Source of the DNA: an uncultured Lysobacteraceae bacterium
GTDB lineage: Bacteria; Pseudomonadota; Gammaproteobacteria; Xanthomonadales; Xanthomonadaceae
Assembly: GCA_902825775.1 (NCBI GenBank)
Contig: CADECF010000004.1
Coordinates: 52,265 to 116,264, forward strand
Length of the DNA: 64,000 nt
Direction: 5' to 3'
The position numbers and the translations under genes are program-made. Below are positions 29,254-44,929 of the stretch, piece after piece. A model generated the notes under the pieces. It worked only from the letters and a program-made list of their open reading frames with translations, searched no databases and was not told the origin of the DNA. Position 1 is the first letter of the stretch. The number at the start of each line of letters is the position of its first letter.

Positions 29254-32200
29254 CTACCCGACCCAGGTTCTGGCGTTGCGGAACATGCGCATCCACGGCG
29301 ATGCATCCGGCCATTCGCGCGGATGCCAGCTCAGGTTGACGCTGCGCGGCGTGCGCTCGGGGTGCGGCATCAGGATCGTCGCGCGGCCGTCGTCGCTGGT
29401 GAGACCGGCGATCGCGTCGGTCGAGCCGTTCGGGTTTGCGGGATACGCCGTCGCCGAGCGGCCGTCGCCGTCGATGTAGCGCATCGACACCGCCGCATGG
29501 GACCGATCGGCGGCATCGCCGAACACCGCCCTGCCCTCGCCGTGCGACACGACCACCGGGATGCGCGAACCGCCCATGCCGGCGAAGAACAGCGACGGCG
29601 ACTCGGGCACTTCGACCAGACTCAAACGGCCTTCGAACTGCTCGCTGCGATTGCGCTGGAAGGTGGGCCAGCGCGCCGCGCCGGGAATGATCTCGCGCAG
29701 CTGCGCCAACATCTGGCAGCCGTTGCACACGCCCAGCGAGAACGTATCGCCGCGCGCGAAGAATGCGGCGAAGGCGTCGCGCAGCGCGCTGCGTTCCAGG
29801 ATCGACGTCGCCCAGCCGCGGCCGGCGCCGAGCACGTCGCCGTAGCTGAAACCGCCGCAAGCCGCGATTCCGCGGAAATCCTCCAGCTTCGCGCGTCCGG
29901 CGATCAGGTCGCTCATGTGCACGTCGTAAGCGGAGAACCCGGCGCGGGTGAACGCGGAGGCCATTTCGATCTGGCCGTTGACGCCCTGCTCGCGCAGGAT
30001 CGCGACCTTCGGCTTGGCGCCGAGATTCAGGTAAGGCGCAGCCAGATTCTCGGCGGGATCGAAACCGAGTTTTGGCAGCAGACCGGGCGCGGCGAACATG
30101 CGCGACGCGTCGCGTTCTTCGTCGGCGCAGGCCGGATCGTCGCGCAACTTCTGCATCGCATGCGTCACCGACCACCATGCATCGAACAGCGCATCCCAGC
30201 GCCACTCGGCCAGGGTTTCGTTGTCGTGGCGCACGCGGATCGTCGGCGCGGTGGTGGGCCGTGCGATGCGTTGCGCGCATTCGACCAGGCCGTGACGCGC
30301 GACGAGATCGGCGAATTCGGCGCGATCCTCGGACGCGATCTGCACCACCGCGCCGAGTTCTTCGTTGAACAGCGTGCGGCAAGGATCGTCGCCCCGGCCT
30401 TCGCCCCAACCGTCGAGCAGGATGTCCAGGCCCAGGTGCGAGCAGAACGCCATTTCGCACAATGCGGCGAAGGCGCCGCCGTCGGAACGGTCGTGATAGG
30501 CCAGCAACAGGCCGGCCTGGCGCGCGTCGCGGATCAGCTCGAAGAAGCCACGCAGACGTTCCGGGCTGTCGAGGTCCGGGCAATCGCCGCCGAAGCGGTC
30601 GTAGCACTGCGCCAGGATCGAACCGCCCAGACGCTGCTTGCCGGCGCCCAGGCCGATCAGCCACAACTCAGTATCCGCTTCGCGCGACAGCAGCGGCGTC
30701 AGCTGCGCGCGCGCATCGGCGACGGGGGCGAACGCGCTCACCACCAGCGACACCGGCGATACGGATTTGTGCGCCTTGCCGTCCTGCGACCATTGCGCCT
30801 GCATCGACAGCGAATCCTTGCCGACCGGAATGCTGAGGTCGATCGCCGGACACAACTCCATGCCGACGGCTTTGACCGCATCGAACAGCCGCGCGTCCTC
30901 GCCGGCGTGCCCGGCCGCGGCCATCCAATTGGCCGACAGCTTGACGCGTTGCAGGCTTTCGACCGGCGCCGCGCACAGGTTGGTGATCGCTTCGCCTACG
31001 GCCATGCGCGCGGACGCGGCCGCGTCGAGCAATGCCAGCGGGGTGCGTTCGCCGATCGCCATCGCCTCGCCCGCTTCGCCTTCGAAACCGGACAACGTGA
31101 TCGCGCAATCGGCTACCGGCAGTTGCCACGGGCCGATCATCTGGTCGCGCGCGGTCAAGCCGCCGACGCTGCGGTCGCCGATGCTGACCAGGAAGTTCTT
31201 CGCCGCGACGGTGGGATGCGCGAGCACGCGCAGGCCGACGTCGTGCAGCACTTGACCGGGGTTTTCGCCGAGCACGTCGCTGTCCAGCTCCGGCCAGCGT
31301 GCCGCATGCGGGCGTTGCGTATCGCGGTGCATCTTGGGCGGCTTGCCGAATAGCACGTCCATCGGCAGATCGATCGGTAAAGCCCCCCTCCCCTCGGGGC
31401 GAGGCGATACGGCTTGCGCGCCATTGGCGCGCGTATCGTCGAGCGCCCGCGCCGCTGGCGCGGGCTGGGGCGCGGAGCGGGGGTTGGGGTGAGGGTTCGG
31501 CGAAGCGACGGCGTTCCGACTGGCGTCGTACTGCGTACCCTCATCCGCCCTTCGGGCACCTTCTCCCGAAGGAAGAAGGGAAGAGCTCACGCCGTAACCG
31601 ACCACCAGTCGCTCTTCCGCCGTCGCCGTACCGACCACCGCGAACGGGCAACGCTCGCGCTCGCAAATGGCGGTGAAATCGGCGATGCGCTCCTGCGGGA
31701 TGCCGAGCACGTAACGTTCCTGCGACTCGTTGCACCACAGCTGCATAGGCGACAGCGAGGGATCGTCGGTCGGCACTTTGCCCAGGTCGATCGCGCCGCC
31801 CACGCCGGAATCGTGCAGCAACTCCGGAATCGCGTTGGACAGGCCGCCGGCGCCGACATCGTGGAACCAGAGGATGGGATTGCGTTCGGCCAATGCCACG
31901 CAGCGGTCGATGACTTCCTGGCAGCGGCGTTCCATTTCCGGGTTGTCGCGCTGCACGCTGGCGAAATCGAGGTCTTCGGCGCTGTCGCCCGAAGCGACCG
32001 AACTGGCCGCGCCGCCGCCCAGGCCGATCAGCATCGCCGGGCCGCCGAGCACGATCACCGCATCGCCCGGCGACAGCCGCCTCTTCTCCACCAGCGGGCG
32101 GTCGATCGCGCCGAGGCCGCCGGCGAGCATGATCGGCTTGTCGTAAGCGCGCACCGTCGCATCGGGTTCGCGCAACTCGAAACTGCGGAAATAGCCGGTG

Positions 32201-41461: not shown

Positions 41462-41464
41462 CTC

Positions 41465-41670
41465 CCCGTCATCCCAGCGAAAGCTGGGACCCATTTTGCT
41501 TTTGCTCTGAAATTCGAAATCAAGATCAAGATGGGTCCCAGCTTTCGCTGGGATGACGGGAACAAAGTCACTGGATGACCAACCTGCAGTTGTTGAAAAC
41601 CCCGCCTTCGCGGGAATGACGGCTAAATTCAAAGGCACTGGATCCTGGCTTTCGCCGGGATGACGGACGA
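41465..41670. repeat. REP-C pair followed by single REP-B/C arms
   Basis: Arms CCCGTCATCCCAGCGAAAGC (41465-41494) and inverse (41530-41560) with a spacer resembling that of the other REP-C pairs; then lone arms CCCCGCCTTCGCGGGAATGA (about 41601-41622) and GGCTTTCGCCGGGATGACGG (about 41647-41666). The last supplies an in-frame ATG before valS that is not its start. Confidence 0.82.
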
Positions 41671-41683
41671 AAGAAACGACACG

Positions 41684-44600
41684 ATGACCACCCTCAGCTC
41701 CGGCTACGAGCCCAAAACCTTCGAAACCCGCCTCTACGCCGAGTGGGAAAGCAGCGGCGTATTCCAGCCGCAGGGCGACGGTCCCACGTACGCCATCCTG
41801 CTGCCGCCGCCGAACGTGACCGGCACGCTGCACATGGGCCACGCCTTCCAGCACACGCTGCAGGACGCGCTGATCCGCTATCACCGCATGCGCGGCTATC
41901 GCACGTTGTGGCAGATGGGCACCGACCACGCCGGCATCGCCACCGAGATGGTCGTCGCCCGCAACCTGAGCCGCGAAGGCCTCACCCGCGACGATCTGGG
42001 CCGCGACAAATTCATCGAAAAAGTGTGGGAATGGAAGGGCGAATCCGGCGACACGATCGAACGCCAGATGCGCCGCCTGGGTACGTCCGGGGACTGGACG
42101 CGCAGCGTGTTCACGATGGATCCGATGGCGGCCGACGCGGTGACCGAGGCCTTCGTGCGCCTGCACCAACAAGGCCTGATCTATCGCGGCAAGCGCCTGG
42201 TGAACTGGGATCCGGTACTGAAAACCGCGATCTCCGATCTGGAAGTCGAGAACCGCGAAGTGCCCGGGCACATGTGGCATTTCAAATACCCGCTGGCGGG
42301 CGGCGAAACCTACGAATACATCGAGCGCGACGCCGACGGCAACGTGACTTTGCGCGAAACGCGCGATTACATTTCGATCGCGACCACGCGCCCGGAAACC
42401 ATGCTGGGCGATGGCGCGGTGGCGGTGCATCCTTCGGATGCGCGTTACGCGCCGATCGTCGGCAAGCTGTGCGAAATCCCGGTCGGCCCGAAACAGCACC
42501 GGCGCCTGATCCCGATCATCGTCGACGACTATCCCGATCCGGACTTCGGTTCGGGCGCGGTAAAGATCACCGGCGCGCACGATTTCAACGATTACCAGGT
42601 GGCGAAGCGCCACGGCATTCCGCTGTATGCGCTGATGGATGAGCAGGCGCGAATGCGTACGGACGGCCTGTCGTACACCGACAGCGCCGCCATCGCCGGC
42701 CGCGCGGCGCGCGGCGAAGACATCGGCGACGCATCTGCCGTGAATCTGGTGCCGGACGAACTGCGCGGCCTCGACCGCTACGAAGCCCGCGCCCGCGTGG
42801 TCGCCGAGATCACCGCCGAAGGCCTGGCCGTGACCGACGGCGAAGGCGCGCCGCTGGTCGACTCCAAACCCATCATGCAGCCGTTCGGCGACCGCAGCGG
42901 TCAGGTGATCGAACCGTTCCTCACCGACCAGTGGTTCGTGAAGATGGACGATCTGGCGAAGCGCGGGCTCGAATTGGTCGAGGGTACCGACCAAAAGCCG
43001 GGTCGGATCAAATTCGTTCCGCCGAATTGGATCAACACCTATCGCCACTGGCTGGAGAACATCCAGGATTGGACCATCAGCCGGCAGTTGTGGTGGGGTC
43101 ATCGCATTCCGGCATGGTTCGACGAGGCGGGCAACGTTTATGTCGCTCGCAACGAGGAGGAAGCCGTCGCGCAGGCGTCCAAAAAGAACGGCGGGTCAGG
43201 ACCCGCCCTACGGCAGGACGGCGATGTGTTGGAGACGTGGTTCTCATCGGCGATGTTCCCGTTCTCGACCATGGGCTGGCCCGACGCGGCGGCGATGCGC
43301 GAACGCGGTTTCGAAGATTTCCTGCCGACCAGCGTGCTCGTCACCGGCTTCGACATCATCTTCTTCTGGGTCGCGCGCATGATCATGATGACCGACGCGC
43401 TGACCGGGCGGATCCCGTTCAAGGACGTCTACATCACCGGCCTGGTGCGCGACAAGGATGGACAGAAAATGTCCAAGTCCAAAGGCAACATCCTCGACCC
43501 GCTGGACATCATCGACGGCATCACGCTCGAAGAACTGCTGAGCAAGCGCACCACCGGCCTGATGCAGCCGAAGATGGCCGAGAAGATCGAGAAGGCCACC
43601 CGCAAGGAATTCCCGAACGGCATCGCCGCCCACGGCGCCGATGCGCTGCGCTTCACCATGGCCGCGCTGGCCGGCCCCGGCCGCGACATCAAGTTCGATC
43701 TGGGCCGCGCCGAGGGCTACAAGAATTTCTGCAACAAGCTGTGGAATGCGAGCCGGTTCGTGCTGATGAATACCGACGGCTTCGTTGTTCCTTCCCCCGC
43801 CGGGGGAAGGTGGCGCGAAGCGACGGATGGGGGTACGGAGCACCTTGAGCTTCGCGCTCGCGCCGAACCCTCATCCGGTCCTTCGGACCACCTTCTCCCG
43901 ACGGGAGAAGGAAACCGCCAGCAACCGCAGACCGACGCCGAACGCTGGATCCTGTCGCGCTTGGCGAAAGTATCCGCCGAGGCGCAGGTGCATTTCGCCA
44001 ACTACCGCTTCGACCTGCTCGCGCAGGCTTTGTACGAATTCGCGTGGAACGAATTCTGCGACTGGTTCGTGGAATTGGCCAAACCCGCTTTGCAGGGCGA
44101 GGACAAGGCCGCTGCCGACAGCACGCGCCACACCTTGCTCCACGTGCTGGAAGCGCTGCTGCGCCTGCTGCATCCGCTGATCCCGTTCGTCACCGAGGAA
44201 TTGTGGCGGCAGGTCGCGCCGAAACTGGGTATCGACGACGCCACGATTTCGCTGCGCCCGTATCCGCAGACCGGCGAGTTCGGCGCGCAGGATTTCGCGC
44301 GGGCCGAAGACGATATCGAATGGCTCAAGCAGATGGTCTCCGCGCTGCGCCGCATCCGCAGCGAGCTCGGCGTGTCGCCCACCCGGACCGTCAATCTGCT
44401 GGTGCGGGACGGATCGTCGAACGATGCCGTGCGCCTCGAGCGTTTTTCTTCGCAGCTGAAATTCCTCAACCGGCTGGAAGGCATCGAAACGATCGCAGGC
44501 GATCCGCCGCCGGCCGCTCCCGCGCTCGTCGGCGACCTGAAATTGTTCGTGCCGCTGGAAGGCCTGGTCGATCTCGACGCCGAGCGCACGCGCCTGGACA

Positions 44601-44767
44601 AGGAAATCAAGCGCGTCGGCGGGGAGAAGGCCAAGTCGGAAAACAAGCTGGCCAGCGAAACCTTCGTGAGCAACGCGCCGGCCGCGGTGGTGGAGCAGGA
44701 ACGCCAGCGCCTGACCGATTGGACCGCGCAGCTCGAAGCCCTCACCGCGCAGCGCGCGCGCCTCTGA
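41684..44767 (+). CDS. valS: Valyl-tRNA synthetase with repeat-derived inserts
   Basis: Charges tRNA-Val and edits misacylated threonine. 1027 residues, against 951 in E. coli. Class I signature: [20 protein letters not shown] (HIGH-type, about 48) and QKMSKSKGN (about 595); editing domain around [11 protein letters not shown]-terminal coiled coil after [20 protein letters not shown]. Part of the extra length is two repeat-derived stretches: about residues 500-511 and about 701-745, the latter in the loop between the catalytic domain and the anticodon domain. I start at ATG 41684; the ATG at 41660 belongs to a repeat. Confidence 0.96.
43183..43215. repeat. In-frame REP-G fragment in valS
   Basis: GGCGGGTcaggACCCGCC followed by CTACGG: a 7-bp hairpin plus the CCCTAC tail, matching the inverse of REP-G at 21786 (GTAGGGTGGG...). 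It sits where ValS proteins vary, just before [15 protein letters not shown]. Confidence 0.6.
43786..43920. repeat. In-frame palindromic repeat pair in valS
   Basis: Two inverse copies of a roughly 46-nt unit: left CCTTCCCCCGCCGGGGGAAG-GTGG..., right ...CCACCTTCTCCCGACGGGAG-AAGG, with about 33 nt between. Total 135 nt keeps the frame and encodes a Ser/Pro/Gly/Arg/Glu-rich loop. The right unit is shared with the purL insert. Confidence 0.88.
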
Positions 44768-44813: not shown

Positions 44814-44929
44814 TGTCATCCCGAGCGAAGCGAGGGATCTGCTTCACGCAAGCCGCCGCGATAGCAGATCCCTCGCTTCGCGAGGGATGACAAAAGCACC
44901 AAGAGCTCGCGGCTGAAGCCGCCCCCACA
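44814..44929. repeat. REP-H pair plus single REP-A arm
   Basis: TGTCATCCCGAGCGAAGCGA (from 44814) with inverse at 44865-44892, followed by a REP-A arm at 44902-44929. Located between convergent valS and rimI. Confidence 0.85.

Follow-up and report, generated by a model that had tools for sequence, protein, structure and literature searches.

A dispersed palindromic unit lies in frame within valS

The window, by which we mean the whole 64,000-nucleotide stretch of DNA analysed, contains valS, an essential gene for protein building, and two mutually unrelated repeats lie within its reading frame. The features discussed below are the following.

41684..44767, + strand: valS, valyl-tRNA synthetase, 1027 aa, the gene that carries both repeats (ORF, NCBIfam, Pfam)
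43789..43912, + strand: class A doublet, an in-frame, dispersed palindromic unit of ~125 bp with two inverse halves, at about residues 703-743 (dispersed matches, hairpin, short linkers of relatives)
43790..43810, + strand: left palindromic core, CCTTCCCCCGCCGGGGGAAGG
43891..43911, + strand: right palindromic core, CCTTCTCCCGACGGGAGAAGG
31559..31579, strand not given: another class A palindrome, present singly at this place of the window, with 1 mismatch
43190..43211, + strand: second in-frame repeat, unrelated to class A, GGCGGGTCAGGACCCGCCCTAC, at about residues 503-510 (reverse strand a GTAG plus hairpin, i.e., a REP)

The open frame is uninterrupted across the doublet (ORF 41660-44767, with an ATG at 41684). 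NCBIfam names the product valine--tRNA ligase, and Pfam places the catalytic domain upstream of the doublet and the anticodon-binding domain downstream of it. The protein has one match in its own genome at E ≤ 1e-50. A preliminary description of this DNA had reported an inverse palindromic pair translated within the gene, and both cores were found where it had placed them, in an open frame. The core pattern has six matches in the window (three places, each on both strands) against a shuffle mean of 0.08, and a 146-nt stretch over the doublet folds into one long imperfect hairpin of -91.1 kcal/mol (z -8.1), which none of 200 shuffles equalled. When the unit was searched against the whole genome (G000; 3.76 Mb in 26 contigs), the doublet gave 55 matches merging to 40 places, and near full-length matches (125-132 nt) were present at six places other than valS. 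Neither core has a GTAG beside it, and the unit is therefore not a REP of the GTAG type; its two halves are inverted with respect to each other.

Two more intergenic palindromes, which resemble further repeats, lie on either side of valS, at 41463-41562 (CGTCATCCCAGCGAAAGCTGGGA...) and at about 44818-44890 (ATCCCGAGCGAAGCGAGGGATC...). Rfam matched the palindrome at 41463-41562 only below the gathering score.

The valS copy is absent from sampled genus-mates

From NASRF to ILSRL inclusive, the linker that holds the doublet comprises 73 residues here versus 33 in three sampled genomes of the same genus (G001, G002 and G003), and the class A unit is absent from valS in all three. Alignment with related ValS proteins, which the preliminary description had proposed, thus supports an insertion, but the size estimated there, about 45 residues at 701-745, has to be revised to a net gain of 40 at about 703-743, counted from the ATG at 41684. 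Elsewhere than in valS, class A has 58 matches in G001 and 60 in G003, near full-length ones among them in both genomes, and a search of the G002 genome for the unit returned no match. As the linkers of the genus-mates are short and G001 and G003 carry copies elsewhere, class A is resident in the genus, with the valS copy specific to this lineage among the four genomes sampled. A target site duplication is not demonstrable at the valS insert, the short sites of the relatives being too diverged.

The ValS of G003 (L032) is a mosaic when compared with that of G002, with mostly 87-100% identity before the linker, 47-73% at residues 701-860, 20-43% at 861-954 and 87-92% thereafter. Judging from this sequence pattern, its central segment (~701-954) seems to have been exchanged, and the linker in question coincides with the breakpoint.

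The insert is predicted to form a disordered loop

An AlphaFold2 model of ValS, built from 32 ValS sequences, has a mean pLDDT of 86.4, and its sole run with pLDDT below 50 comprises residues 706-743, between a helix at 673-695 and a helix at 751-772. The top structural match of the model is the T. thermophilus ValRS chain 1gax, and by sequence alignment the insert falls at about residues 598-602 of that chain. The 40 extra residues are predicted to form a disordered loop that leads from the catalytic core to the anticodon-binding bundle. This placement on a structure, together with the dispersed copies and the short linkers of the genus-mates, supports the earlier proposal that a mobile palindrome had entered a permissive linker between the catalytic and anticodon domains.

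Class A units are in frame in other conserved genes

All 40 class A places of the genome were checked for open frames, and 30 ORFs spanning a repeat (25 with class A, five with the second repeat) were scanned with Pfam. A Pfam domain was found in seven of the 30, and in five of these ORFs (L017, L023, L027, L297 and L301) a class A unit is read in frame, either between two domains or within one. The unit lies between the E3-binding and catalytic domains of a 2-oxoacid dehydrogenase E2, ahead of the second ABC domain of an ABC-F ATPase, within the D3 domain of Mfd, which it splits, and in frame in HrpB and in a 4Fe-4S protein, where the sole domain match ahead of the unit is weak. The count excludes L073, a chaperonin ORF with a REP, because the element precedes the domain and is perhaps upstream of the start.

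The ValS linker is a recurrent receptacle of dispersed repeats

The segment before the linker was detected in 284 of 297 genomes of the family, with about 160 places among the matches listed. We assembled a sample of 150 from 120 fetched regions and 30 loci, two of which (G046 and G047) belong to different families within the order, and linkers could be read from 147. Linker length is 34 aa in 93 of the 147 and at least 43 aa in 33. Dispersed repeats occupy 31 linkers and fall into seven classes, labelled by our own reading of the DNA.

Class A, the unit of valS described here and its kin: 14 linkers
Class B, REPs of the GTAG/GTGG types: 7 linkers
Class C, runs of GGGAATC-like heptamers, not long palindromes or hairpins: 6 linkers
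Classes D, E, F and H: one linker each

No insert was recognised in 105 of the 147 linkers, and 11 longer linkers fit no class. Additional cases were found in named genomes (L085, L094, L113 and L125, of which L094 is Pseudoxanthomonas sangjuensis and L125 Luteimonas salinisoli) and outside the family list (L126, L128 and L143, with the class again by our reading).

The inserts are repeated elsewhere in the genomes that carry them. A single class A unit, used as one common query, has between 5 and 86 matches in 10 of 10 genomes, and the doublet has 34 in G227, 53 in G206, 58 in G069 and one in G231. Class B has 4 to 72 matches in six of seven genomes, the class C pattern 2 to 143 in six of six (phases of one run being counted apart) with none in the control, class E 87 and class F 15; the counts for these five classes may include the valS copy itself. 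Class D has four matches within its own 20 kb. Altogether, 28 of the 31 inserts have support for further copies outside valS in their own genomes; the search for them gave no match in G207, one weak match with another query in G231, and two pattern matches, possibly valS itself, in G209.

In 129 genomes, inserts of at least 8 aa were also subjected to a blind BLAST test against pooled non-ValS DNA, an insensitive test with a threshold of three regions. The 31 linker inserts that entered it are not the 31 labelled genomes but comprise 21 labelled and 10 unassigned cases; 13 passed and 18 fell below the threshold. None of 387 random ValS segments passed, although three of them matched within their own 20 kb, and linkers without an insert of at least 8 aa passed in five of 98 cases, these 98 including five class C and three class B rows. 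The neighbouring genes pepA (114 genomes) and holC (128 genomes) contain no internal insertion of at least 8 aa. Within ValS, length variation is seen at several further positions. One of these, site S0 (about residues 318-355), was considered as a further receptacle and set aside as ordinary length variation, since none of its 47 inserts reached three pooled regions.

These data indicate that the ValS linker is a recurrent receptacle of dispersed repeats across related bacteria. The preliminary description had treated the case as one insertion; the insertion itself stands, but the phenomenon is wider, with unrelated repeats in the same linker of many species.

Linkers of genus g7 (e.g., L254-L258) share a 25-residue insert around NASPRAQ[MV]ANHA, which is present in eight g7 genomes and more diverged in G033. 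It had no match in pooled DNA in the eight tested and is perhaps an old, eroded insert. The ValS of a record titled Bacillus subtilis SK7B5 (L101) resembles those of Stenotrophomonas records, and this assembly is perhaps mislabelled or contaminated.

Linker repeats change often across ValS trees

The tree set, like the linker set, comprises 147 of the 150 sampled, and the two differ by one genome, G292 being absent from the tree and G284 from the linker set. On a first ValS tree, built after removal of variable columns, 27 parsimony changes of the class label are needed (not separated into gains and losses, with 42 of 144 inner branches weak, and omitting the 11 unassigned rows); 50 shuffles of the labels gave 28-31, with a mean of 30. 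With the unassigned rows as a state of their own, 34 changes are needed, and the 14 class A rows require 14. Four trees, based on the N-terminal half, the C-terminal half, all columns and the local flanks, need 25-26 changes, with shuffle means of about 31; G284, an eroded class C, is corrected in these four counts and was labelled as lacking an insert in the first-tree and clustering counts.

Sister rows were found to carry different repeats (A in G206 and D in G313; A in G227 and B in G239; A in G289 and H in G231; A in G081 and F in G006), G190 has an insert-free sister (G248), and G229 has an insert-free near relative (G265). Labelled inserts, taken together irrespective of class, show some clustering on the tree (23 changes versus 24-31 in shuffles). 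When rows with an insert are considered alone, their class agrees slightly with the tree, with 12 changes against a shuffle mean of 15.4 and three of 200 shuffles as low.

Insertion, targeting and maintenance

We consider it very probable that a dispersed, non-autonomous repeat was inserted in frame in the ValS linker, where it is tolerated, and that this linker is a recurrent receptacle for such elements. The identity of the repeat, its dispersed copies, the short linkers of relatives, the recurrence on the trees and the position of the linker in the model are observed in the sequences or the model, and we infer that the protein is made at its full length of 1027 aa and that the effect of the insert is near neutral. 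A MITE-like unit of ~125 bp with two inverse halves would have entered the linker in frame after the split from the three sampled genus-mates and would be translated as a disordered loop of 40 residues. It may have been kept owing to the tolerance of the linker, which could accept 40-50 extra residues, and to the small number of stop codons in any frame of the unit. Among the class A units of valS, five of six examined are open in all six frames, and in some of six copies elsewhere only one frame is closed; REP pairs are, by our reading, open solely in the VGGASAPT frame, which is the frame used. The linker has taken up unrelated repeat families in many related species, and a second ValS loop, near residue 500, may do the same. 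As to how the repeats move, a REP transposase is a plausible route for the GTAG types; we know of no mobiliser of class A.

Several other readings have to be weighed against in-frame insertion into a tolerant linker. An ordinary lineage-specific GC-rich loop would fit the variation in length seen at this position across the family, but the unit occupies 40 dispersed places in the genome and is absent from valS of the sampled genus-mates with their 33-residue linkers, and we reject this reading with near certainty. The preliminary description had named the same alternative in terms of a stretch carried by all close relatives and matching no repeats, which is the opposite of what we find. It is also improbable that the inserts spread between species through recombined valS segments with a break near the linker, instead of by repeated insertion. 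Exchange of gene halves does occur: G003 and this ValS are 93% identical before the linker and 61% after it, and G217 and G243 are 96% and 73% identical, respectively. This does not explain the pattern, however, because all four trees, including those of the N-half, the C-half and the local flanks, still need 25-26 changes; moreover, when each of the 14 class A rows is compared with its nearest valS, that neighbour lies outside class A in 10 cases on the N side of the linker and in 11 on the C side. We doubt strongly that the insert has a selected function, such as slowing of the ribosome by an mRNA hairpin at the boundary between the domains. A very stable hairpin does sit at that boundary, and inserts recur in many lineages, yet 105 of 147 linkers do without a recognised insert, no sequence is common to the classes, class C consists of heptamer runs and not of long hairpins, and close sisters differ.

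A targeted landing site is the alternative that we would still entertain, although we regard it as unlikely. The linker DNA would then be a preferred target of a REP transposase or another enzyme, with insertion at the same nucleotide, in the same orientation and frame, and with mutual replacement of elements. Ten class A inserts of one peptide type (G229, G004, G241, G089, G289, G147, G253, G019, G081 and G190) share one frame and orientation, and six of them begin, by our reading, at the same offset, 15 nt past the LMN codon, even though most of the units examined could be read in any frame. This constancy of site, orientation and frame exceeds the expectation from plain tolerance, and both peptide selection and a preferred target are possible reasons for it. 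Class B REPs come after TCT in four of seven cases (G016, G239, G087 and G278, by our reading), and a REP transposase of S. maltophilia is described, in the part of the source covered here, as cleaving at CT in vitro (PMC8266576). Of two Y1_Tnp matches in the genome, one is flanked by inverted GTAGAGCGGAGCTTGCTCCGCT-type repeats, like a REP-transposase unit (L305 1150-2100, G000:C7); its flanking GTAG hairpins belong to another REP type than the repeat at 43190-43211, and the GTAGAGCGGAGCTTGCTCCGCT-type REP is also found in a second ValS loop, S1, of G089, with a variant in G238. The different repeats in sister species would likewise fit targeting. On the other hand, the classes differ in their ends and some begin elsewhere in the linker, no target duplication can be made out against the diverged short sites, stop codons leave class B (by our reading) no choice but the frame used, as both alternatives are closed, and class A units in other genes of this genome are also read in other frames and orientations. 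One may tentatively suppose that the linker is actively targeted or functionally maintained, with unrelated repeats entering and replacing one another there at the species level and with class A fixed in position, orientation and frame, a proposal that we think unlikely to hold. If true, an essential enzyme would be a regular, heritable docking site for mobile palindromes.

Relation to known palindromic elements

Rickettsia provides the best-known palindromes in reading frames, and scattered cases of REPs come from other bacteria. The Rickettsia palindromic elements (RPE) are described, in the parts of PMC2229807 covered, as palindromic dispersed units of 105-146 bp that lie in frame in several conserved protein genes as well as in intergenic DNA; Wolbachia counterparts are named there in a reference title. 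The likeness to these elements suggested by the preliminary description is borne out in form, as class A is a dispersed, hairpin-forming palindromic unit of ~125 bp, within a range of ~100-150 bp, and is in frame in ValS and in five unrelated conserved genes with Pfam domains, one of these hosts having a weak match on one side only. These are other bacteria, however, and the comparison is one of form; we claim no RPE membership. As far as the same parts of that source go, one kind of RPE enters many genes, whereas valS receives several unrelated kinds of repeat in a single linker throughout a bacterial family. ERIC, RU and Correia elements, the enterobacterial and neisserial MITEs, are similar in being short and non-autonomous and in having open frames that become joined to those of host genes, and differ in sequence and hosts; recurrence at a single site is not seen in the covered parts of the source (PMC2229807).

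The preliminary description knew of no comparable report for xanthomonads. This cannot be upheld, since the parts of PMC3733652 covered already describe intragenic REPs, in recB of X. campestris and X. oryzae, in tRNA synthetases of X. oryzae and in pseudouridine synthase genes of S. maltophilia; the translation of palindromes is therefore not in itself new for xanthomonads. The text does not specify the X. oryzae synthetase, and it reports different REPs at about the same recB site in two Xanthomonas species. These intragenic GTAG/CGTC REPs ("REP-decorated" proteins) represent the type to which class B and the repeat at 43190-43211 belong, whereas the class A unit has no GTAG head. Those parts of PMC3733652 make no mention of a hot spot common to REPs, heptamer runs and palindromes of non-REP type, and our literature search for a ValS case, a further xanthomonad case or a multi-family hot spot in one essential linker found none among the results listed. 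The linker of one essential enzyme provides natural replicates by the dozen in related bacteria, and close relatives with short linkers can serve as controls. It allows one to measure which repeats are translatable and in what frame, the rate of their turnover, and any targeting of the insertion.

A second in-frame repeat in ValS

The repeat at 43190-43211, which the preliminary description lacked, reads on the reverse strand as GTAG GGCGGGTC CT GACCCGCC, with the head beside a short perfect hairpin as in a GTAG REP. GGCGGGTCAGGACCCGCCCTAC has 24 pattern matches in the genome (≤2 mismatches, some places being matched on both strands) versus none for the reversed-pattern control, and the repeat is also in frame between the domains of a B12-binding/MeaB fusion protein (L068). 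Variant palindromes are present, by our reading, at the same valS site in G003 and G016, which makes this repeat look older and changing as a palindrome. By the same kind of reading, loop S1 holds REP-like palindromes in G087, G162, G238 and G089. In the blind BLAST test with its three-region threshold, one of 15 S1 inserts passed, as did one of 114 loops without an insert. In the ValS of G087 (L189), both the linker and the separate loop S1 contain REP-like inserts.
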